A stretch of 64,000 bases of DNA from Spongilla lacustris (lineage: Eukaryota; Porifera; Demospongiae; Spongillida; Spongillidae): contig OX442415.1 in NCBI GenBank assembly GCA_949361645.1, positions 14,611,235 through 14,675,234 of the forward strand, written 5' to 3'. How positions within the stretch are numbered: the stretch's first letter is position 1; every line of letters begins with the position of its first letter. Positions 7,924-60,744 of the stretch are shown in pieces. Both the position numbers and the translations under genes were made by a program. The notes under the pieces are model-generated. The model worked only from the letters and a program-made list of their open reading frames with translations. It was not told the origin of the DNA and ran no database searches.

Positions 7924-10900
7924 TTAAAATACTAAATAATAATAATAATAGATAAATAAATAAATACACCCTATTATTACTACTGGTGTGGGACAAAACA
8001 TCGAGAGGATGGCTACAGCATTGGCTCTAACTAAGCAGAGGTTCAGCCTGCCATATAGCTCAGCTACATGTAGGACCACAGCCTTAGCCCTGTTGGAGCT
8101 GGTCGCTAGGCGAGAGGTCAGAAGTGCCAAAGACTCCATTGCTTCTGTTCCCCAAGCACCATATGCCTCATCCACCATGGGGACATAAACCCACCCTAGC
8201 TCCTTGCATTTGGCATCGTTTTCTTCATGCTTTCTCAGCTCAGTAGCTCTGGCAGCCTGACCTGCTGCTAGTCCCGCTTCAAGTAAAACATTGGAGTTAA
8301 GCGGTGACGACACAGACAAGTCAAAGGCTGCCGGCTTACCCAAAGATCAGTTGGGTACTAGGATGTCTGCAGGGCGAGTGTGGCTATGGTCATGAGTTAG
8401 GCTATTTCCTGCCTCCACCTTAACACTCAGGTGAGCCCTGCGACAGGTCCCAGCAAGGGTGTCACGTAGTTTATTATGGCGGGTTACAACATCTCCACCA
8501 TGCGTGCAGGTGAGTGCATGATGGCCAAGGGGGTCCAGCCTTTTCCAGGACACAAGGGACAAATTGAGCCACCTGAGGTGTCTAGGCCCAGCCACCACTT
8601 GATGGCCACTTGGAACTCTGAAGGCTGGAGATGAAGGCCTAGCCTCTCAGAGGGAATTACTGACACCCAAGATGCAGCATGAGGGGAGGAGACAGAGAGA
8701 AGGCATGCTCTATCTGCAGGAGAAGATTGCTCCAGTAGTAGATTAAACATGTGGCTGTCTATTTTGTTGGAAAGTACCTTCTGATGGATAGGGGATGTCA
8801 ACACTTTTTCAATGCTGATCGCCTTTGATGAAGGAACAAGTGAGTTAAACAACTCTACTGCATGGATAAGGTGCTCCTGGGACAATGGACCAGCACCAGA
8901 GGAGCTCAGAGAGGCAATGTATGCTGCTGGTGAATGCCAACTCAGGGAGCGCATGCCCAGGCCACCCCATGCCTAAGCTGAGCTCTGCCTGTTGCCAGGC
9001 CTGATTGGAGGTGTCAACTGCTGTGCACCTGGTAAAGGCTGTCCGCATGTAATAATCAAAGGCCTCGAGGGCTGACAAGGCTTGGGAGGGTGGTGTGCCG
9101 CGAGCAAGTTGGGCCACCTTGCAGAATCCCGCACATTGACGTAGAAGGGAAAAGGCCACATGCGGGTCGACTGCACCTACTTCCTCTAGTTTGAGCAGGA
9201 GAGCTTTGGCCTCTTCATGTTTCTTCAAAATAAAGGAGGAGCAAAATGCCTTGTCACCAATGGGGATGCCCAGGATGATGATATTAGGGGTTTGGGATCG
9301 TTTCATTTCTGGTGGAAATGGGCTGACATTATGTGTGCTAAAAATTTCACATTTTGGAACATTCACAATGAGACCAAGACTAGGACCTAGCTTTTGTATG
9401 ATGGAGAGAGCTTCAAGAAGAACAGACCTGGGACCGGCCAGCACGCCATCATCCAGGTACCAGGCATGGTAGGACAAATCAGCACATGCAGTATTGGTGG
9501 TGATTTCGGACACTAACTTATTTAAAACCAGGGAGAAAATCAGGGTGCCAAGAGGATCACCCTGCTGAACCTATGTTCCGAATGTAAGGTGCCCAAAGGA
9601 TGACACAGAAAGGGGTGCTGACTGTAACACTAGGTGGCCCAAGGAAGCAGCTCAGGGAAGTGTTTGCTACACTCTGATAGGATAGCCCCCCGTGAGACCA
9701 TATTGAAGGCGTTTTTCATATCCACCTTTAGGACAACAAAGTCATCATCAAGCCAATGTTTGTTAACACAAGCTCTCAGATCATGGGCAATCTTCTCTGC
9801 TCCATTGCTGCAAACAACTCCAAACTGGTATGGTTTGAAAAACTCTGCTGCCTTCCCTTTCACTACAGCACAAAGGCATTTGCTGGTCAGGTGACTTAGG
9901 CTTTCACCTACAGCAATAGGTCTGACATCAAGAAGACTACCAGGTTTAGACTTGTTAAGGGCAGTTATACTACCACCAGCAAGGAAAGTGAAAACCTCAG
10001 ATGGAGCTCTGCCAGCTGCAAGGAGGTTGATGACAGCCCTCAAGATTGGAGGATGGGTGTCTGAAGGGGCACCTCTGATGCATCAAAGATGTGTTGAATG
10101 CGAAGCCCTGACGGTCCAGCTGATGTTAGCTTTGGAAATGACCTAAGGACAGCCATGAGATCAAGGTCATGAGGGATCACAGTATAACGGATGGTAAGTT
10201 GGGAACAGAAGGACAAGGACACTCAGGATGTTTAGCAACTAAAAGTTTCCATGTTTCAGCATTGTTAGGTGCTAACCCAGGTGACACAAGTACTTGGCAT
10301 GCCTTACCAAAGAGACCATCCTGTACTAAGGATATTGTTGAGTTAACCCTCTTCTTAACTGTGTCATCTAAGGGCACTCGTTGCTTTTTGGAGCAAGGAG
10401 CACTGGCTTTTGCCAAATGCCATAGCTCCCTAAATTCACCCTCCCCCCACATTGCACAGATACTCTCAATGGAAACAGGCTTGTTGTGACGCCCACCACA
10501 TTTAGCACTGGGGAGAACACACTTGCATGGGAAGCAAAAAAAGCTTCAACCAAGCTGTCACTGTGTTTTCAGAGATGACAGCCATGAGAGCAGCTGAGAA
10601 GGCTCGTGCAAAAGCCGGCCTTGCTTTGTAGGGTACAAAGCGTATTGTTGGGCACTTGAGGCTGCATACCTCATCAGAAGAGCACAGGCTGGGTGAAACA
10701 TCTAACACAGGTGCCAGTGGGGTGGAACGTTGTGCCAAACACTTCTGCTGATGTGAAGGAAGGTGGGAGGTTGAAACTAGTTTCACGCAAGTATGGCAAA
10801 CAGACAAACCCTGATCCAAGAGCCATGAATCAGGAACTGCACCCGGAAGAAGCCCTCTCAAGTGGCTATCTATATGGAGGCGCCACATGGTAGGTGCAAC

Positions 10901-11280
10901 TAATTCTGGACACAGCATTGCTTCCTTCTTTCTGCAGCTGGCTGTGCAACAGGACCTCTCACAGGGATTGGAAAGTCCACAGACAGTAGCAAGATGTAAT
11001 GGTCTTGAGTGAGGGATTCACCAGTAGGACATGGGAGGTCAGGTGTTGATGATGGGAGTGTGGATAACAACTGCTGCACTACAGCTGGTGCCAAAGGTGG
11101 AATTGAAGTGGATGATTGTGATGGCGTTGCAGACAGCTCCAAAGTTGAAATGGGCAGCTGCGGATGAAAATTTAGCTGCTGCAGGGAGACTTGTGAGCCT
11201 AACTGCGGAAGTGACTGGGAATAATTGTTTTTGCCCCATATGTCTAAATGTATTATGTATTCTTTGTGACAATTGAAACC
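7924..11280 (-). pseudogene. Near full-length RT retroelement with N-terminal zinc knuckle and C-terminal RLE-like domain
   Basis: Minus-strand reading order: a Pro/Ser-rich start (about 11260-10950); CHTCVKLVSTSHLPSHQQKC (C2HC finger, about 10800); and a linker to 10180. The RT follows from about 10043, with RPIAVGE, GVVCSNGAEKIAHDL and VVLKVDMKNAFN. QQGDPLGT lies near 9565, and the catalytic WYLDDGVLAGP box near 9460. The thumb-like region ends at about 8850. The tail has CPLCPGK, GHHALTC, TRHNKLRD, TRPADILVPN and KPAAFDLSVSS. The reading frame shifts at several places (near 10450, 10040, 9600, 8850 and 8500), so it is not functional as it stands. The clade is uncertain: the tail looks like a restriction-like endonuclease, whereas YLDD is unusual for R2-type RTs, which normally read YADD. 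Confidence 0.8.
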
Positions 11281-11321
11281 GGCCCTTAATATCAAGGCAG
11301 TAGTGAGTCTTAAATAATACA

Positions 11322-12341
11322 CCCACATGTAGGGTGTGTAGCCTTTTTCATAAATCAAAATCGATTATTTCGACTATGACAAAAAGTCCAATCGATTTTT
11401 CAGGTTAATAGCAACTTGAAAATCGATTATTGGAAACATTAAATCGATTTTGGCGATCAGTGCACCATTAATTTGCCACCGATTACCTACGTTTTTCGAG
11501 GTTTTTCCGATTTTTGATATTGGCCAGGTAAATCACAGTTTCTCAAGTCTATACACGTATAGCCAGTTTTATTACTTATCAGCCAACATTAAAACTACAG
11601 TTACACGTCCCTTATAAGATAGTATCCGTAGGGACTGGGAACGAGGTGCATTCCAATGTGACGCCACATCCAGGTGGATGGGAATTATAAGTGCTTCAAA
11701 TATTTTTTCACCAAAGAACACGTTCTTGCATGTTGGGTACCTTTCCACGCATATGCCAAAGCCACCAATCAAGACATGTACGATTTCATAATATTATGGC
11801 ATAGATAGTAAATATCTATGGTTATAGCTGAACGTCTGGAATAGAGCCAGTCACCTGTGCTGCTGTGCAAAAGAGTACATATAGCACATTCGATTAACGC
11901 ACATGTACTATATCTACTGCAGAGAGCGCGAACGTATTTAAATCGCCGTCCCCACTGACTGCGCGTATTTACGTTGATTAGACTGCACTGATGGCAGAGA
12001 TAGTATATTATCTGGTAATTCAGCCGGGTCCCCAGACTTATGTTCATTACATCATTTCAAACATGTTTCTGTTTATCGATTAATTAATCCTTTGTACTAC
12101 AGGCGGGAAAAGCGAAGGGCATATAAAAAGGGTAATCGATTTCGTACCGATTTCTTCATATGAAGGAAACGAATATCGACTAATCGCGACTAAGAAAAAC
12201 AGAATCGGTTATTTCGACTGAAGGAAATTTTGAAATCGGTAACCTGCTATTCTACTAAATGCATAGTCGACCGAATAGGTAATCGCGAATAATCGATTAA
12301 CCTGCAAAACCTGAAAATCGGTTACACACCCTACCCACATG
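11322..12341. mobile_element. 1,004-bp non-autonomous hAT-type element (11330-12333) with 8-bp TSD
   Basis: The left end reads TAGGGTGTGTAGCC and the right end, reverse-complemented, reads TAGGGTGTGTAACC. Identical 8-bp duplications CCCACATG flank the element at 11322-11329 and 12334-12341. An 8-bp duplication with a YAGGG-type terminus is the hallmark of the hAT superfamily. The interior has no transposase but is packed near both ends with AATCGATT-like motifs, typical of hAT subterminal transposase-binding repeats. It is missing from the paralogous site near 58807. Confidence 0.9.
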
Positions 12342-12568: not shown

Positions 12569-12652
12569 TCCAATGATTCCACTTGTGGGTGTTTCGATAT
12601 AAACCTGTTCAAAGCCACCAATATATCCTTGTCATATAAATCACCACTAATC
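12569..12652 (-). CDS. NLR gene 1, first LRR exon (28 residues)
   Basis: The acceptor AATTTCAG lies just upstream of 12652 and the donor GTAAGT just after 12569. The 84-nt exon starts and ends in the same phase as the LRR exons of NLR gene 2. It encodes ISGDLYDKDILVALNRF and ends KHPQVESLE, a ribonuclease-inhibitor-like LRR helix and turn. The two nucleotides carried from the NACHT exon complete its first codon (ATG, Met). Confidence 0.8.
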
Positions 12653-12707: not shown

Positions 12708-14310
12708 ATTAATCTTCGAACACTATCCATTGTATTGTTCAGCTTCTCTGTAATAATGTCCAGTCCTTCAGCAGTTAGTTGACACCTCAATTCAATCTCC
12801 TTCACAAAATGATTTGCTGCTCCCATACAATATCCAATAGCACAGCAATCAAGAAGTGTGAGGGTTTCATTCAAAATTACTAATTTTCCATCAGCTTTGT
12901 TAAACAGCTCTCTACATTTCTGATCATTCTGTGACTCGAAAACACAATGCAATGCTCTGAGGTTCACCTTCTTGTCACCTTCATCTATCAGTGAACTGTT
13001 CATTATCACAGACCAGTGGTCATAATTCTGTAGCTTTGTTAGACCGCAGAAGAACTTTAAGACCACACCCATATGAGGTTGGACAACATGTTCCCTGATG
13101 GCTTTAAGCTGCTCATCAGGAGGCAGTCTGCTGACATGGTAGGCAGCAAGGAACTCCTGGTTGGTTAGGTGAGCAAAGGAGAAGATGGGTTCCGCACCTG
13201 ACTCACCCTCTTTTTCATCCATCACAAGGATACCTAGATTGGCTACATCAGTTGTTGACCATTCCCCTCCTATTAACTGCATTAGCTCATCTGATAAAAA
13301 GGAAGTCTTTGAGCCAGCAGTGGTGGTGTATGCAAGTTTCAAAATTCCTCTGAACAACACTAACTCTGGTTGAGGTAGTAACTCAAGGTCATTGATTTGA
13401 ATTTTTATCTCCTTTTTTCTGAAGTATCTAACTAGAGACATTCTGGTAAAGATATGGTACACATCTGTTTCTGTCTTAGGAAGAGATATTGTTTTCTCCT
13501 GACGGTTGTTATAGATGAAGATGATCATGACAAGATGTAATGGTATATAGCACATATGTCTTATGTTTTGGTGATCATGGAGGTATGCTTTCACATCAGT
13601 AGCCTTGGAGGGATCGGTTGGATAGCTGGTGTCAATGTACTGATCAATCTGTTCCTTTAAGAAACCAAGAACTTCACCTCGTGTGTGGACACTTTCTCTC
13701 AACTCCAGAGAAGCATTTGGTCTGGAAGTTATTATTACTGTTGAAGAGGTAAGAATGTTTCCTCGCAAAAACTCTTCAAACCACGAGTGGCCATTTTTAG
13801 TGTACTTTCTAGAATACTCATCTAGACCATCAAAAACAAAACATGTATTTTCACCTTCATTTCCATTTAATACATCTTCCAAATCAGTCAGGTGAAAATA
13901 CTTCAGTATACAGCTTAATCCCTCAATTGATGTCGCATAAAATTGTCGAAGAGGAACAAGGAACAGATACTTTACAAATGTCAAAATTGCTCCTTCCCCC
14001 CAATCTTTGCTCAGTTTCCTCATCAACGTAGTCTTGCCACAGCCTGGTCTTCCTTCTAGCAGAACTATTCTTTTCTCTGATGTAATACTATCCATTAGGT
14101 CTTTATAGGATATAGTGACCTTTGTTTCAATGACATCATCCAGTGATCCTTGAATGGTATTATAGTAAAAGTCACCTTTATGTGTTTCTGTTGTGTCCTT
14201 GACCAGTGCAAGATTTGTGAAGGAGAATGTTTGAACAGGAGGGAAATCCATTTGAGCAGGTTTGTAGTTGTGATATCTACCTTTTAGCTTTCTAGTGAAA
14301 GGACTTTCCG
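12708..14310 (-). CDS. NLR gene 1, NACHT exon
   Basis: This one large open exon of 1,603 nt (about 534 codons) begins after TACCATAG. It encodes the STAND-type ATPase switch of an NLR. The Walker A motif is GRPGCGKTTLMRKL, Walker B is CFVFDGLDEYS, and a sensor-type ITSRPNASLEL follows. The downstream helical region includes FAHLTNQEFLAAYHV, where FxHLTxQEFLAA is characteristic of the NACHT-associated winged-helix segment. The frame stays open with no damage. The donor ATTAAT|GTGAGTG precedes the apparent stop, so the TGA just beyond is intronic. The best relative in the window is 59105-60710. Confidence 0.93.
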
Positions 14311-14645
14311 CTATGGTAGAAATATATTTGCATGTATAAGTATGCTTGCAACTGATAAATACTCTAATAGGAGTTATGCCACATGAGGGACATTTGAGAT
14401 AAACATGTACATGCATGTAATGGAGACCATGAGATATGAGCTAGCTTGCATTGTAAGCATGGCAATGGAGACATGGGAAATGTGCATGCAGTGGAAGCCA
14501 TGGTACCTGACCATGCAGTGGAAGCTGAAGTCTCACCCATGCTCAATGGCAATAAATCCCCATTATAACACACCAGTCAATCAACCTGCATGCGCAACCC
14601 CACATAACCCTCTACCTCAGATCTTCACATATCCGACATGAGCAT

Positions 14646-15195
14646 GTACATGTAGTGGCAGCCATGTGACATGAGCATGTAGTGGAGGCCATGGGACATG
14701 AACATGTAGTGGAGGCCATGGGACATGAGCATGCAGTGGAGGCCATGGGACATGAGCATGTAGTGGAGGCCATGGGACATGATCATGTAGTGGAGGCCAT
14801 GGGACATGAGCATGTAGTGGAGGCCATGGGACATGAGCATGTAGTGGAGGCCATGGGACATGAGCATGTAGTGGAGGCCATGGGACATGAGAATGTAATG
14901 GAGGCCATGGGACATGAGCATGTAGTGGATGCCATTGGACATGAGAATGTAGTGGAGGCCATGGGACATGAAGGCCATGGGACATCATGGGACGTGAGCA
15001 TGAAGTGGAGGCCATGGGACATGAGCATGTAGTGGAGACCATGGGACATGAGCATGTAGTGGAGGCCATGGAACATGAGCATGTAATGGAGGCCATGGGA
15101 CGTGAGCATGTAGTGGAGGCCATGGGACACGAGCATGTAGTGGAGGCCATGGGACATGAGCATGTAGTGGAGGTAGTAGAGGATGTGGGACATGG
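14646..15195. repeat. 27-bp minisatellite upstream of NACHT exon (gene 1)
   Basis: About 20 units of the 27-bp word CATGAGCATGTAGTGGAGG + CCATGGGA are arranged head to tail with a few point changes and one disordered patch near 14970-15000. Because 27 is a multiple of three, long open frames appear on both strands (9-residue repeats), but these are by-products of the repeat. It sits in the intron between the second Death exon and the NACHT exon. The paralogous intron has a shorter array (60745-61040). Confidence 0.95.
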
Positions 15196-18100
15196 GCATG
15201 TAGTGGACATGCATGAGCAGGGCTGGCCTTTCCGCTAGGGCTGCTGGTCAGTGAGGCTGCAAAACTTAATTATTCATATCTCTGAATTAAAATGGACCTG
15301 ACTTGCCACCGAATGTACAGTAACAACAGCACTGCACATCTTATTAACAGCTCCCATTACAGTTGCTGAGCAGAAAAGAGCTTTTCAAAATTGATGCTTA
15401 TAAAGTCTGTACAATCATGCGAGATACCTAGTACACAGGGGGGGGGGGGGGGGGGGGGGGGGGGGAGGGGGCAAGCTGGGGTTCCTCTGCCAAGACTACA
15501 GGAAAGTCTGGAAGCAAGTTGTTCATGTTGTATTAATATGCTATACTTTGTGACTTAAAAAGTGGTCAGTGGGCTCAATCGACCCAGGTATCCTACCCCA
15601 TATCACATACCCACCGCTGCAGTACTAGGGCATTTATTGAATCATTTTCAGCCGTTAAAAAAGCTAGAAATAAGTATAATCTTTAGCACATTACATGATT
15701 ACATTATATGCAGTGTTCTAAAGATCATGCATGTAAAGCTACAAATGTGCATGTGGTGGAAGGATGTTACAGAAGGCATCTTTTCCCCCAGAGCAAGCAC
15801 CCTCGAGCGAGAACAGAAGGAAGAAATGACCATTTTTGCCTAGCTAGGGTGACCAAACATAAAAGGCCAGCACCAACATGAGCATGTAGTTGGAGGCTAA
15901 ATATATGGGACATAAGCATGTAGTGGAGGTCACATTATTTATTACATGTTATTAAAAACTATACTATTGGGACGATATAATGATCGAAACATAAGGTAGT
16001 ATATTAACATTTTGCACATAATTGTGCAATTGCTGAGTTTACTTAATCGATTAATCGCCAGACTATAGAATTTTGTGCAGATTGAACATATATGCACATG
16101 TTCCAGCTAACATACCAACAAGTGATATTCTGTCTCCATCAGGTCTATTCTGCATTGAGTCATAGGTGCAAATAGTATCCATTTCCTACCCCATTTTACG
16201 TATTACCGCGAGTGAATTTTGTCTGATGAAATAACTGCACAAATTCTAAGCTAAGGACATTGAAGCTAGGGCAATCTGGTGAAGGATTGTGTTCAGAAGC
16301 CCATCAATTACTTACTTGAGTAATTCATTCTACCTGTAAAAGGAGAAAGCACAGGGCCAATGACCCCAACTTGCATGCATGTATGGTAACTGGGTAAACT
16401 GGGGTGATGGGCATACCACTTTTTCGACTGATATTAATATTTCTTTAGTCTCCCAGCCGCCGCTTATTGCGTTGTTTTTTGGGGCCTGCAGCCCTGCCCC
16501 AGGCCCCCTAGGGGAAACTTACAGCACCCCCTCTGCACCTTCCCCAGGGCACCACCATCAACTGTGCCATGCACAGTTGTGTTATTTGCTAATTTATTAT
16601 TCATTGGCTGCACAACTTTTTATTAGCTTCCGGCGCCGCTGATCAAGGAAACATGCTCATGTATTTGGTGGTCTTTTCTTTCCACTAGCTCATTGAATGA
16701 AATTCTGCACATGGTAGGTTCAACTTCACAATTAACCAAGTTTTGAATATTCTCCTACATGTATGCCCAATCTTTGGTGCATAATGTTTGACACTGATGC
16801 TATTTGTATGCAATTTAGATAGTCACTTACATGTAAATCAAACATCAATACCCAAATATATGCACACCCGATTAAGTGAGGTCATCATGGACCATTTGCA
16901 TTGGACGTTACATATACCAATAATAAAGTTTATAAGAAAATGTGTTATTTGTACTGCAGCTATTATATCCTATATTAATTTGATAACTTGGAGTCATCAT
17001 CATTATTATAAGCCAAAACTCATTATTTTATAGATTACAGTATCAATACAACATTCAGTTATTGCATCACTGCATGATTGGGGTCCTACAACAATTGACA
17101 ACAGTTGTTAAAAACCATCTAGTTCTGAAAACGCAAGTGTTGCGTATCTCCAACCACACACTACATAAAGGTCAACAAATATGCTAGGCACAAAACACTT
17201 GAAAGTTAAATTGCTGATTTGCAGCATGCGACATTGTATCTTGCCAAAGTTGTAAACAATATGACTCATACACGTGTGCAAGTACAGTGTACATGCACAA
17301 GAATTTGTACTAAATGGAACCAATGGAACATACATGTACATGTAGAATTGAGAAAACAATGAATTAAAAATTCTTTTTAAAAGTGATATCACAAACCTGA
17401 AACAGGTATGGCAACTGCCGCTGAGTCATTTAATGTCATTCTTGGTGAATCTATGATAGAAAACATACTGTTAATTGTTGCAATTAATACAATACAATGT
17501 AAAAGTAGGTAAAGCTAATAGACCATTCAATTTGAACAACTGTTGTCAACACCAAACGCCATCCTCCCTCTCCCACTCTTGATCCATTAGCACTAAATAA
17601 GGTTGTCTTAAATCTGCAGGTGGTGTCTTCACACAGGCAGTTTACCACAGCAAAGACTAAAGTAAAGTGTACTGCTGCCTGACTAGGGAGAGCGTCTGTC
17701 AGAAAATGATGTACATGTAGAGCGCAAAAGGGCAATAGCCATTTTCTGTCCTATTAAAATACTACCATGTGCCGCATAAAGAAAGAAATTTAGTACCGCT
17801 GGACAGAGGCATCTCAGGTGGATTGGTGCACATCTAAATAGTAAAGTAAAGTGGTCACAAGAGAGCATTTGCAAGATGACGCTACTTTTGTACTAACTTT
17901 TTCACCTTTGTAAAAATACCCAGCATGCCTGCATTGTTCCCACATTATCATAACCATATCACCCATTACTGCCAGTAGAACAATAATGCATGTATTACTG
18001 AATCAATCAGGATTGCTAAAATGTCTGTTGCAGACTGCACTCGAACAAACTACACGTTTGTACAATGTGATGTGGATCATGTAGTCTTGGAATGCCTCGA

Positions 18101-19149: not shown

Positions 19150-19425
19150 CTTGGTACATTGGACAGTACGTAACTCGTATCTCTTCAGCTAATACTGACT
19201 GCTTAGTAGAGATGAGGGCACCAATCAACTTCTGCCAGGAACATGATATATCTGACTGCAACCAAAACTGAATCATATCACGTCTGCAATGTGACACCTG
19301 TCCACGATTGTTAACATCAATCTCTTCTATTTTTGTCCCACTCAATTCCAATTGAATTGCCAGTGATTTCCAATCCACCAAGTCCTTTAAGGCACTATGT
19401 ACGTTTTTATCTGTGAAGGATGAAT
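19150..19425 (-). CDS. NLR gene 1, second Death-domain exon
   Basis: This 276-nt exon lies between the acceptor TGGCTGCAG and the donor CCAAG|GTCAGC. It encodes a six-helix Death-fold: DWKSLAIQLELSGTKIEEI for the first helices, then a cysteine/glutamine turn, MIQFWLQSDISCSWQKLIGA, and LAEEI at the end. The W…LA…LGL and W..LI.AL…LAE.I spacing fits the DEATH family. The phase accepts the linker exon and passes one nucleotide to the NACHT exon, giving a GCG (Ala) codon at the junction. Role by family: homotypic binding to Death-domain adaptors. Confidence 0.85.
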
Positions 19426-21147: not shown

Positions 21148-24031
21148 TTAACCCCTATTCACTCAACCTTTTGTCCTGTTTACAGGACACTTTTGCCTGT
21201 ATACAGGACAAATTTTCATTAAATTATTTCATATCCTAAAAATGTTCAATTGAAGATTTTATAGAAAGAATGGTTCAAGAATTGGTCCAAGATATTTGTA
21301 ATGTGGCATGTGTAGTCTTTACAGTCATATGTTTTTAATGAAAATTATTTGTGTTGAATTTTGGCATGTTGCAATATGTATTGTAGAAAATTTTTGCTGC
21401 TTTTTATAACTAGTAGTAATTTATCTGAGGTTTGGGACCGGTTCCGTACCTGAAACTTTTCATATTGCACATATCATCACTGCACAACATGTGTATAAAA
21501 AGGTGAGAAAGGTGACCTTTCCTTTCTTCACCTTTTCATTTTGTTTCATTGATACAGGAATACCGGAAATAGACTTCTTTACATTCAAGACCCTTAATTG
21601 ATATTCGTGGATGCAAGGCATGAAAAATGGTATCACCACATGACTGTCATGTACTTTATGATGATTTCCATGTGCCATTGATTCATGACATTTTTATCTA
21701 TGTTGCCATCTCAATTATATATGCATTTAATCACATACAGACAGTGTTTATTAAACGATCTACCACTGGCTTATTGAACCAGTCACTTCACTGTTCCCTC
21801 AAAACTTTCCGCAAAGCTGAAACTGCAATGCATGTTGGGCAGCACACTGTCTTCCAGTTCCTGGCCCACACATATAAAACAAAGTTGCTTTTTTCCCTAA
21901 ACAGGAGCACTTTAATAAGCCTTCTTACCACAAACTCCATCACTGTCATCAACCAGCACTTTACACTTACCCATCACTGATGCTGTCCCATAACCTGAGC
22001 CACGTATTAGTACTGGGCAGTGGTCTGGTACTGAGGGTTCTACCAATTTCTTTGCAGACTCATTCAAACATCTCAAGATCTGTCTGGGCGGAGATACAGC
22101 TGGCCTACATAAGGATATTGATAATGTGTTCACAAATTCTTTCAGTGCTATGTTTGATTCCTCAAAATAGACAAATGCACGGAAAGAATTTACAACTGCC
22201 ATGCCCAATAATGTCTGGAATAAACGAATCCACCAGTCTTTTGTTTGCCATATCTCTTCCAGGCCAAGCAAATGCTGCCAAAGTTGGTTATGAACATCGA
22301 TGCAATTTGCACTCTGATAGTATGACTTAACTATATTTGACTGAGACACTTCCATATATTCTTCACATACCTGACCAGCATCATTCCTGATTCTCCTCAG
22401 CCTCCTCCATGGTTCAGTAGGCAGTGATGTTCCAAAAGTTGAAATGAAAAGTTTCATTTCTTTGATGATTTTGACTGACTTATCATTTAACTTCTTACCA
22501 GGTTCTTTTTATGCATGTGCTATCAATCGTCTTCCATATTGATCTAATGAGTGTAAAGAAAGCACATCACCACGCTTAGAATCAGAGTTAAATGCATTAT
22601 CTTGGGGTAATTAGCAGTAGAATTTTTAATAACTCCAACAAAATTCATTCCCATTCTTTGCATAGCTTCTGCTGTCTTAACACTTGCAAACCATCCATCA
22701 CCAGCAATACTTCTCTTGGTTCCATGATAGTGTTCAGATAGACGTTGTGTTACAGCAGTAGTTTTCATTTTTGTGTCAGCAAAATATTTTTTTGGGACAT
22801 ATTTTCTGGCTTCTCTTGCAGTTCAATGTTCAGCACTATCCTGCTTTTTGCATCACAAATATTCTTTATCATGAATCCAACTCCTTCTGGTTTCAGCTTC
22901 ATTTTTGTCACTTGAGGAACATGATGTTCACTACCCAACCACCGGCTCATGGATTCATCGACGGCTAGTGAGTCTCCCGCAACAAATACTGACTCCATAT
23001 TCTCATTGAATAGCTGGAACAAACGTCTTATTCGGTACCATTCATCGGTTTTCTCTGCCTTTTCTGCATTCCCTTCCCAAAATGCCAGTGCAGCACCACG
23101 AATTTGCTCCCATCTATGCTTACTCATTCCAGTTTTTTCACCAAATCGATTTGCAGTTATAAATCCATCATCCTTTACTTTCCAGTAATCTTGTATTGTA
23201 GTAAGAGGTTCTACAGACATGCCAAGCAAACAGCCAATGAACTGATCCATTTCATCTACATCCAAATTACCATTTTCACCCAGGAAAGTGTTTGTGTTCT
23301 GAATTATGAAGTTTTGCATCTGCTGAGAATACATCAAATGAAAGTAATCAATAACATTCTTACCAAACACTTCTAATCTGCCTTTGGAAGACGATTGCCA
23401 GTTGAGACGAGGCTTAACAGTCACAATATCCTCTATGCTTCTCGGATCGACAGAGTCTAGCGAGGGATCCAATTTCCACACGCGATCGCCTACCTTTATA
23501 GAGTTGCCTTCACGAACTTCCTGAGGGGCATCCGGTGGTTCCTCGTCATCAGTGGAGACCTCTTCTGATGAACTAACTCTATCAGAATCATCAGTCTCTT
23601 CGCCCGCAGATGGAATACTCAAAGGTACGCACGTTTTAGCGCGTTTGGAGGGTACACACTCAGTTTCCCTCCTAAAAATTCGATGTTGCGCTGCATACTC
23701 TGCCACAAAAGGAGGTTGAAAGGAGGTCCATTCAACACGGTATTCACGCTTTTTCCCGAGTCCACTCTTCCAATTCCGTCCAAAAATCTTTTCCAGTTCA
23801 CCCTTTTTTGCTACAATTGTACCTTTCGCGTGGATGGCCTGTCCTACCTTCATTCGCGTTCCATTGATTGTTATACACGACTAACTACGAGAAGGTCCAA
23901 CTCCATCTTCATCACAACCTGCCATTTTTAGTTCAAGGTTTAACTAGAATAAATGGCTTCACGCGTTCAAAAATTGTCCCACATAAAGGACAATTGTCCT
24001 TTATACAGGACATTGAGTGAATAGGGGTTAA
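21148..24031. mobile_element. piggyBac element (21152-24027) with TTAA duplications
   Basis: Both ends read CCCCTATTCACTCAA, in opposite orientation, directly against TTAA at 21148-21151 and 24028-24031. TTAA targeting with a CCC start is diagnostic of the piggyBac superfamily. Subterminal palindromes built on GTCCTGTxTACAGGAC occur inside both ends. The element is 2,876 bp and carries a minus-strand transposase. It lies in the intron between the first Death exon and the linker exon of NLR gene 1, where it would be spliced out. Confidence 0.95.
21912..23853 (-). pseudogene. piggyBac transposase (DDE_Tnp_1_7), frame-broken
   Basis: The N-terminal 362 codons (23853-22765) contain an acidic leader and the catalytic start VFVAGDSLAVDESMSRWLG. 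The frame then breaks near 22765. The next piece (22768-22544) holds the second acidic block, SIAGDGWFASVKTAEAM. Another shift near 22560 and a TAA near 22515 precede the C-terminal piece (22457-21912), with SANCIDVHNQLWQHLLG, the third Asp region. All three expected Asp positions survive, but at least two frameshifts and a stop disable it. A complete Cys-rich C-terminal finger is not visible. Family length of about 550-650 residues fits the sum of the pieces. Confidence 0.88.
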
Positions 24032-24891: not shown

Positions 24892-25191
24892 CAGTGCTGT
24901 CACTCTGGGCATAAGATGTGGTCAACTTTCTAACACCTTGGGCAGCTTCCATGTGTTGCAGTTTTTCAAATATGTTAACCAGTTCCCTATATGTGGCCTT
25001 GGGTCCCTTCATTTCCAGCCACTTCTCAAACACTTCATCTCTTTTATTTTGTTCACTAAGCCCTTCATTGCCAATGATGTCTTTGGTTAGCTGGGGACCT
25101 ATCAGACGCCTAGCTACTGCCCTCAAATCGAAGCATTGAAATGATGCTATTTCATACAAGTGTTCATGACTGCATAGCAAGTCCAGAGGGT
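24892..25191 (-). CDS. NLR gene 1, first Death-domain exon
   Basis: This 300-nt exon is bounded by CACCGTTAG and ACTG|GTAAGTG. It encodes a Death-like fold: PLDLLCSHEHLYEIAS, then LRAVARRLIGPQLTKDIIGN, EVFEKWLEMKGPKATYREL and IFEKLQHMEAA, ending near SDST. The order of helices, the W in the fourth helix and the ATYRELVNIFEKL ending agree with the DEATH family. It is more divergent than the second Death domain. Phase is compatible with the 2A exon upstream (Asp codon split over the junction) and the linker exon downstream. Confidence 0.82.
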
Positions 25192-25251: not shown

Positions 25252-25387
25252 CTTCACCATGCTGTGCCAAAGGTCCAGGGTTCACTTCTACATCTCCGGA
25301 CAATATCAGAAGCTGCCTTATCGTCGACATTAATGACGTAATCACTAACGACAGTACATGTAGAAACTTCCCAACTGCTCTGTACAT
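25252..25387 (-). CDS. NLR gene 1, N-terminal exon with 2A-like peptide
   Basis: The ATG lies exactly after the acceptor TAATAACAG. The exon encodes MYRAVGKFLHVLSLVITSL, a basic then hydrophobic stretch like a signal sequence, then RQLLILSGDVEVNPGPLAQHGE before the donor GAAG|GTAAGG. GDVEVNPGP fits the 2A consensus D-x-E-x-N-P-G-P, with a typical LL-rich, SG-preceded upstream context. Such sequences make ribosomes skip the Gly-Pro bond. In some echinoderm and sponge NLRs they are reported as N-terminal signals. Skipping would release residues 1-37 and start the receptor at Pro; without skipping, the leader could direct secretion. Function here is inferred. Confidence 0.85.
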
Positions 25388-25442
25388 CTGTTATTAGGAG
25401 AAATCAGAATAAAGCGAAAAACGTATGCACTTGAACACACAC

Positions 25443-25775
25443 CTCGCTAGACCTCGATCGAAGTTTGCTACCAACTGCAAATTCTAAACTCATGGACCAC
25501 TGTTCCAGGCACATCGATATTCTTGCTATTACGTATTTGAGGTTGTCCTGGTAACAACCTCTATCGGATACTTTGCAGATATCCTTTCCTCTCCACCTTT
25601 GCGTCACGTTGGCTGGGCTATGATTCTTGTCCCCGCAGCTAACGTTTCTACGGCTAACAAACGTCCCGATCCTTGCCCTGTACGTCGCAAGGTCGACTCC
25701 CATCTTGCGGCTTAGCGGCTTGTCTACTCCCTCGCAAAATACCTGTTCTGTCTTCACCACAACAATATTATCCAA
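25443..25775 (-). CDS. Possible upstream exon of NLR gene 1 (5'UTR or coding)
   Basis: An open frame from ATG at 25775 reads MDNIVVVKTEQVFCEGVDKP and runs about 111 codons to a possible donor (AGCGAG|GTGTGTG). A 55-nt intron ending TAATAACAG would then join it in frame to the 2A exon. If coded, the 2A peptide would be internal and could split two products. If not, this is 5'UTR. No homology is recognised. It contains a 37-bp word shared exactly with 30830-30866. Confidence 0.4.
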
Positions 25776-59049: not shown

Positions 59050-59104
59050 CTGAAATTGGAATTATTAAGTATAAAGAACATTGTAGCACTTATAACACAC
59101 TCAC

Positions 59105-60710
59105 ATTAATCTTCTAACATTATCCATTGTATTGGTCAACTTCTCTGTAATAATGTCCAGTCCTTCAGCAGTTAGTTGACATCTCAATTCAATCTCCTTC
59201 ACAAGATCATTTGCTGCTGCCATGCAATATCCTATAGCACAGTAATCCAGCAAGGTTAGCGTTTCATTCAAAATTATTAATTTTCCATCAGCTTTGGTAA
59301 ACAGCTCTCTACATTTCTGATCATTCTGTGACTCAAAAACACAATGCAATGCTCTGAGGTTCACCTTCTTGTCACCTCGATCATCTATCAGTGCACTGTT
59401 CATTATTACAGAGCACTGATCATCATTCTGTAGCTTTGTAAGACCGCAGAAGAACTTCAACACCACACCCATATGAGGTTGGACAACATGCTCCCTGATG
59501 GCTTTAAGCTGCTCACTGGGAGGCAGCCTGCTGACATGGTAGGCAGCAAGAAACTCCTGGTTGGTTAGGTGGACAAAGGTGAAAACGGGTTCTGCACCTG
59601 AGTCATTCTCATTCTTATCCATCACAAGGATACCCAGATTAGCTACATGTGTGGTTGACCATTCCCCTCCTATCAACTGCATCAGCTCTCCTAATAAAAA
59701 GGAAGACTTTGAAGCAACAGTGATGGTGTATGCAAGTTTGGATATTCCTCTAAACAACACTAACTCTGGTGATGGTAGTAACTCAAGGTCTTTGATTTGA
59801 ATATCTATCTCCTTTTTTATAAAGTATCTAACCAGAGACATTCTGGTAAAGATATGGTACACATCTGTTTCTGTCTTAGGAAGAGATATTGTATTTTCCT
59901 GACGATTGTTATAGATGAAGATGATCATGACAAGATGTAATGGTATATAGCACATATGTCTGATGTTTTGGTGATCATGGAGGTATTGTTTCACCTCAGT
60001 AGCTTTAGAATGATTGCTCATGAAGCTCCTGTCAATGTACTGATCAATCTGTTCTTTAAGGAACCCAAGAACTTCACCCCTCGTGTGGGTGCTTCTCCTT
60101 AACTCCAGAGAAGCATTTGGTCTGGAGGTTATTATTACTGTTGAAGAGGTAAGAATATCTCCTCGCACAAGCTCATCAAACCATGAGTGGCCATTTTTAG
60201 TGTACTTTCTAGAATACTCATCTAGACCATCAAAAACAAAACATGTATTTTCACCTTCATTTCTATCTATCTCATCCTCTAATTTAGTCATGTGAAAATA
60301 CTCCAGAATGGATTTTAACTCCTCAATTGGTGTTACATAAAATTGGTGAAGAGGGATAAGAAACAGATACTTTACAAATTTCAAAATTGCTCCTTCTCCC
60401 CAATCCTTGCTCAGTTTTCTCATCAATGTAGTCTTGCCACAGCCTGGCCTTCCTTCTAGCAGAATTATTCTATTCTCAGATGTAATACTTTTCATTAGGT
60501 CTTCATAGGATATAGTGGCTTTTGTTTCTATGACATCATCCATTGATCCTTGAATGGTATTGTAGAAAAAGGGACCTCTGTGAGTCTCTGTTGTGTCTTT
60601 GACCAGCGCAAGATTGGTGAAGGAGAATGTTGGAACAGGGGGAAAGTCCTCATCGGCAGTTTTATGGCTGCGATATCTACCTTTCAGCTTTCTAATGAAT
60701 GGACTTTCCC
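59105..60710 (-). CDS. NLR gene 2, NACHT exon
   Basis: A single open exon of 1,606 nt after CACCATAG, ending ATTAAT|GTGAGTG. It has the same motifs as gene 1: GRPGCGKTTLMRKL (Walker A), CFVFDGLDEYS (Walker B), ITSRPNASLEL and FVHLTNQEFLAAYHV. It shows clear amino-acid divergence from gene 1, judged by eye at roughly one residue in seven, mostly in helical regions after Walker A and in the loop after the sensor. One extra codon (DDRGDKK versus DEGDKK) sits late in the exon. The frame is intact. N-terminal exons lie outside the window or were not found to 64000. Confidence 0.92.
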
Positions 60711-60744
60711 CTATGGTGAAAATAAATTTCCATTACATTGCATG

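Follow-up and report, generated by a model that had tools for sequence, protein, structure and literature searches.

The window analyzed here is a stretch of 64,000 nucleotides, and a gene on its minus strand is predicted to encode a receptor with two Death domains and a NACHT domain, carrying a 2A (StopGo) site in its frame. The site lies in exon 2 (25252-25387, minus strand), whose translation, MYRAVGKFLHVLSLVITSLMSTIRQLLILSGDVEVNPGPLAQHGE, combines a hydrophobic segment with a 2A part reading ...LLILSGDVEVNPGP. A preliminary description of this DNA had noted a complete D-x-E-x-N-P-G-P core, and DVEVNPGP, which conforms to the general StopGo core (D/G/C/N)(V/I)ExNPGP, is indeed present in frame at 25294-25271; the bond predicted to be skipped is that between Gly (25276-25274) and Pro (25273-25271). 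Exon 2 ends in the donor GAAG/GTAAGG, which is followed by a 60-nt intron and the acceptor TTAG directly before 25191, and it splices in phase 1 into exon 3 (24892-25191, minus strand, phase 1 in and out), a Death-domain exon opening with DPLDLLCSHEHLYEIA... A second Death domain is found in exon 4 (19150-19425, minus strand, in phase). Exon 5 (17397-17450, minus strand) is a putative short linker placed by phase-consistent splice sites only, exon 6 (12708-14310, minus strand) is an open frame containing NACHT and its adjoining region (Pfam PF05729, E 8.1e-21), and exon 7 (12569-12652, minus strand) is a predicted in-phase exon of 28 codons leading towards a leucine-rich region, which by eye resembles the C-terminal ends of Ephydatia muelleri models such as P0003. 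Joined, the six exons from the 2A exon to the 28-codon exon give 817 amino acids with no stops and all junctions in phase, which bears out the earlier proposal of a phase-consistent 2A exon spliced into a Death exon. Both Death domains proposed 3' of the 2A were also recovered: exon 3 gives a weak match (PF00531, E 0.0068; 17 bits, below the Pfam cut-off of 22.6 bits), and exon 4 lies above the cut-off (PF00531, E 4.3e-5; 24 bits), as do the Death domains of the E. muelleri proteins P0010, P0025, P0028, P0035, and P0064. These gene models, and the joined mRNA that they presuppose, are predictions from sequence.

The window gene has the NACHT and the N-terminal Death domains of an NLR. A tblastn search with E. 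muelleri pieces found no leucine-rich repeats 3' of the NACHT exon within the window. Such repeats are present in E. muelleri P0028, and P0028-like repeats occur in at least four places in the genome, none near the window, by a search that overlooked the known match at 50825-50760. That match lies downstream of the NACHT exon of a sister gene (59101-60732, minus strand; E 2.5e-21), whose own 2A falls beyond the right edge of the window (G000:C1:14680213). The top match of the window protein is an unnamed protein (99% identity over 66% of the query), and its best named relatives are hypothetical proteins of E. muelleri (e.g., 64% identity over 82%). Judging from these sequences, the genome belongs to a sponge that is a close relative of E. 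muelleri.

Mobile elements and repeats accompany the gene. Frames of a DDE_Tnp_1_7 transposase, presumably of the piggyBac type, occupy the intron between the Death exons (21912-23880, minus strand), and reverse-transcriptase frames lie just downstream of the NACHT gene (8484-11364, minus strand; RVT_1 match of 1.4e-7 at 8845-9570). In the E. muelleri proteins P0025 and P0066, NLR sequence runs into a similar-looking reverse transcriptase. By eye, a minisatellite of CATGCTCATGTCCCATGGCCTCCACTA-like units fills 14617-15269, in the intron before the NACHT exon.

In a DNA pattern search of the 248.6-Mb genome (51 contigs), D(V/I)ExNPGP occurred at 54 sites and the reversed pattern at none, so the set of sites is not due to chance. 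A leucine-rich ..(S/A)G context, of which the search pattern is independent, precedes the core at 51 of the 54 sites as scored by regular expression; in the window it reads LLILSG, with Asp at p12. The three misses are L045, whose frame is broken, L051, whose LLLAMSG is also leucine-rich, and L052. The last, on contig C17, is probably a chance match, having neither the leucine-rich context nor a Death exon nor exon 1. Death exons were found downstream on the same strand at 41/54 sites, and all 45 matches were downstream and on the same strand, in a scan of downstream flanks of only 1.5, 2, or 8 kb with a Death HMM built partly from loci that it later scanned. At L039 and L051 the Death match shares the open frame of the 2A. 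The first donor-like site 3' of the 2A is in phase 1 in 50/54 loci and lacking in four. A NACHT match lies at most 40 kb downstream, with no intervening 2A, at 25/54 sites, which account for 25 of the at least 80 NACHT matches in the genome. In three cases (L024/L028, L025/L029, and L023/L030), two loci separated by more than 300 kb share an identical sequence that starts at the exon-1 motif and ends shortly after the 2A; these pairs represent very recent duplications or assembly duplicates and may inflate the locus counts.

Upstream of the 2A exon, across a predicted intron of 55 nt (25388-25442, minus strand) whose donor and acceptor align in paralogs, lies a further candidate exon of 87 codons. 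This exon 1 (25443-25703, minus strand) begins MGVDLATYRARIGTF..., runs from MGVDLATYRARIGTFVSRRNV... to RSRSSE, ends in the donor GAG/GTGTGT in phase 0, and joins the 2A exon in frame. Its YRARIGxF motif occurs at 29 sites in the genome, and the reversed pattern at none. Twenty-eight of them are followed on the same strand by a 2A site at a distance of 358-483 nt, a spacing with a chance expectation of about 0.0001 per site; near the 29th the sequence reads N, and a 2A could not be judged. A motif profile added the variant copies L011 and L061, bringing exon 1 to 30 of the 54 2A loci within the stored flank. The module is not universal, since in 24/54 it was not seen within that flank. An in-frame join of exons 1 and 2 is available in 25 of the 28 motif loci, and for three of the 28 (L058, L059, and L060) the script rule found no exon-1 donor; donors and acceptors in the exon 1 and exon 2 comparisons were consensus-like sites picked by rule. 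The exon-1 lengths so chosen range from 198 to 279 nt and are divisible by 3 in all 22 copies compared. Dozens of Death-domain genes in this one sponge genome thus carry a 2A, many of them behind a conserved upstream module.

For the N-terminal parts of the window protein and of P0025, Pfam returned no match to exon 1 up to E 1, and the string YRARIG did not occur in the literature searched by text. N-myristoylation at the start MGVD was another idea, dropped because the variants MGIDVES, MGVDIPM, and MGVDLDT do not fit the pattern for it. A degenerate relic of exon 1, TYRLTARIGTFVSRRNVT, lies at 30881-30789 (minus strand) with no 2A core nearby.

Selection on the two exons was estimated from paralogs. 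After removal of three identical copies and of L058, L059, and L060, 22 distinct copies of exon 1 remained out of 28. Over these, dN/dS was 0.384 in the proposed frame, with 0.094 over the first 20 codons, and rose to 1.19 and 1.25 when the forward frame was shifted. One reverse frame is also low (0.439) because third positions coincide, the usual shadow. These values indicate purifying selection on exon 1, which is probably the first coding exon. Within exon 2, the 2A part gave a dN/dS of 0.165 versus 0.549 for the hydrophobic leader, the least constrained part (16 of 19 exon-1 loci, three identical copies dropped); values within the octapeptide are biased, as the search pattern fixes those residues. 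This contrast bears on the possibility that the exon serves only as a membrane anchor within the protein, its NPGP core being incidental. The most hydrophobic 19 residues of the window copy, VLSLVITSLMSTIRQLLIL (25301-25357, minus strand), form residues 98-116 of the joined protein and have a modest mean Kyte-Doolittle hydropathy of 1.83; the 19-residue values of 1.83 to 2.91 obtained for three joined sequences of this genome and two of E. muelleri would suit an anchor. An anchor alone, however, would not lead us to expect the 2A part to be better kept than the leader, even allowing for the bias in the octapeptide, nor the result of a looser search: NPGPxG(Q/E) occurs at 50 sites (reversal, 2), and 40 of these also retain D(V/I)E. 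We regard an incidental core as highly improbable.

The arrangement recurs in E. muelleri. Among ten E. muelleri proteins fetched, eight begin MGVDL(A/D)TYRARIG about 100 residues before the 2A, and the window has this same opening at 25703. Nine of the ten carry (D/N)(V/I)ExNPGP, three of these nine with an Asn core, and one, P0028, begins just before the 2A. These E. muelleri models are computed annotation and do not prove splicing, and in some cases one gene may be listed in both NCBI and EukProt. Two region searches found the exon 1 plus 2A segment in no species other than E. muelleri (9 of 837 and 7 of 1745 candidates, all E. muelleri, as assigned by protein name or by Em... gene numbers taken to denote that species). 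A structure prediction for P0010 from eight sequences was too poor to inform the analysis (mean pLDDT 45.9).

A second species also matters for the idea that the motif is left over from a lost function, or that the gene is in decay, and that translation yields no two products. The setting lends itself to this idea: mobile elements crowd the locus, a transposase in the intron that separates the Death exons and reverse-transcriptase frames farther downstream, no leucine-rich repeats turned up in the window beyond the NACHT exon, and other copies are degenerate, such as L045 and the exon-1 relic without a 2A at 30881-30789. Against decay, the model consists of open exons that join in phase, purifying selection acts family-wide on exon 1 and the 2A segment, and E. 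muelleri has retained the core. A relic therefore appears improbable to us.

The preliminary description had placed the 2A at the N terminus of the receptor, with the 25387 ATG as the start, and this placement is probably wrong: the conserved exon at 25703-25443 joins in frame, and an ATG aligned with 25387 is present in only 12 of the 28 exon-1 loci (L013-L016, L018-L020, L053-L055, L059, and L062). In the 16 others it is absent, the aligned position reading ATA in L022-L027 and GTA in L031. Some in-frame ATG lies 20-60 codons before the core in 31/54 loci, including 23/28 with exon 1; there is none in 23/54, five of them with exon 1, and there a start further upstream is therefore needed. 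The exon 1 ATG has A at -3 and G at +4, and the 25387 ATG has T at +4. The 2A site, at residues 119-126 of the joined protein, is on this reading of the sequence most likely internal. A second, shorter start at 25387 is possible for the window copy.

On these starts depends an explanation modeled on sea urchins, in which translation begins at the 25387 ATG, the leader acts as an N-terminal signal peptide, and skipping picks between a secretory and a cytosolic product. It has a precedent in reporter assays for one Strongylocentrotus purpuratus NLR 2A, as described in the available part of Roulston 2016 (PMC4981915), and it draws further on the aligned ATG in 12/28 exon-1 loci, on the ATGs at 20-60 codons in 31/54, and on P0028, which starts just before the 2A. 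Against it stand the 16/28 loci without the aligned ATG and the 23/54 without any ATG in that interval, the in-frame exon 1 with its purifying selection and better ATG context, and the leader of exon 2, which at a dN/dS of 0.549 is the least constrained part. We consider this explanation rather unlikely, and a second transcription start could let it operate alongside the exon-1 form. The dual-location switch that had been proposed for the window gene keeps its tested sea-urchin precedent and is weakened on the side of its signal: the hydrophobic stretch lies 98 residues into the predicted protein and in that place is not a classical N-terminal signal peptide, and for that reason a secretory-versus-cytosolic switch through such a peptide is doubtful here. 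Since the switch needs an N-terminal signal, it is less likely at the window locus.

In the available text of Roulston 2016 (PMC4981915), sea-urchin NLRs carry a 2A at their N terminus or elsewhere in the N-terminal region in 85/241 or 14/87 by two counts, and both skipping and signal activity were shown for one of them; in a text search of that paper the words sponge, Porifera, and Amphimedon have no occurrences. The preliminary description had spoken of earlier reports from both sea urchin and sponge, and we could confirm only the former. In the literature searched by titles and the beginnings of abstracts, no sponge case was found. A survey of eukaryotic and viral 2A sequences has reportedly been made by Rao et al. 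2025, and it may report one. Death-NACHT-LRR genes are described in sponges in the accessible part of the Dysidea avara NLR paper, in which a text search found no occurrence of "signal peptide."

The S. purpuratus element, SpNLR2A, offers the closest comparison, as far as the available text describes it: a D(V/I)ExNPGP 2A after a hydrophobic run, with Death and NACHT domains following, in a family of NLRs that has expanded. SpNLR2A is 26 residues long and lies at the N terminus or elsewhere in the N-terminal region, and one copy was tested as a signal sequence, whereas the sponge core lies at residues 119-126 behind a conserved exon of 87 codons, and the sponge 2A also precedes Death exons for which a search across 40 kb gave no NACHT match. 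A second likeness is to viral StopGo sequences. According to the portions available of a 2026 paper (PMC12846837), LLLLSG-like motifs 2 and 6 accompany Asp at p12, activity in reticulocyte lysate was observed for a motif-6 construct, and viral variants with Asn at p12 showed more than 95% activity, each in its own context. With its leucine-rich ..SG hexapeptide and Asp at p12, LLILSG-DVEVNPGP fits motifs 2 and 6 as given there. It differs in its setting, a family of cellular genes instead of a viral polyprotein, and in a Val at p15 that is not among the residues favoured in the same text. Third, the sponge sites represent the same class of recoding peptide as the 2A of non-LTR retrotransposons in animal genomes. 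Such 2A sequences are said to have been found in APE-type elements by Odon et al. 2013. In the scan of the flanks for Death domains, the neighbor found at the sponge sites is a Death exon (41/54).

We think it probable that a StopGo site works within the frame of a Death-Death-NACHT receptor, between the YRARIG exon 1 and Death domain 1. The core and its context, the in-phase exons, the constraint on exon 1, and the retention in paralogs and in E. muelleri are present in the sequence, and from them we infer that the exons are joined in one mRNA, that skipping takes place and how efficient it is, and where two products go and what they do. Ribosomes would start at exon 1 (25703) and make a peptide of 125 residues, MGVDLATYRARIG...VEVNPG, with the hydrophobic segment near its C-terminal end. 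They would then stall at NPG, the Gly-Pro bond would not form, and the 125-residue peptide would be released. Translation would resume at the Pro, a short distance before the Death domain, and yield the receptor as a second protein with the N terminus Pro-LAQHGED... This skipped receptor would be mostly cytosolic, with a nearly free Death-domain end. In a minority that escaped skipping, the YRARIG module and the hydrophobic segment would stay attached, and such molecules could be anchored in a membrane.

A more speculative extension, which we offer as tentative, is that Death-domain receptors of this kind are two-protein units, in which StopGo would set, for each mRNA, a fixed ratio between a small YRARIG protein and a Death or Death-NACHT receptor, with a residual uncut form bound to the membrane. 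On that extension the YRARIG protein, with its hydrophobic tail, is a possible tail-anchored membrane partner of a cytosolic receptor. In the available part of the 2026 paper (PMC12846837), StopGo is held to be never or rarely used in cellular organisms. If the units proposed here are real, they would represent a genome-wide cellular use of StopGo that couples a partner protein to immune receptors. Carried by dozens of Death-domain genes of one sponge, many of them tied to the conserved upstream module, StopGo would be an established part of an immune-receptor family in animals other than echinoderms. The question would then move from whether there is a signal peptide to the purpose of the released N-terminal protein.

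Some loci depart from the common plan. L041, L047, L049, and L050 have the 2A and a Death exon with no nearby NACHT, and other frames on the same strand downstream, which may belong to the same gene, contain a CVNH domain in L047 and Death matches in L041 (just below the cut-off), L049, and L050. In the DIEENPGP subgroup (L009, L010, L041, and L047), Gly/Glu-rich sequence directly follows the skipping site and is repetitive in L010, L041, and L047.
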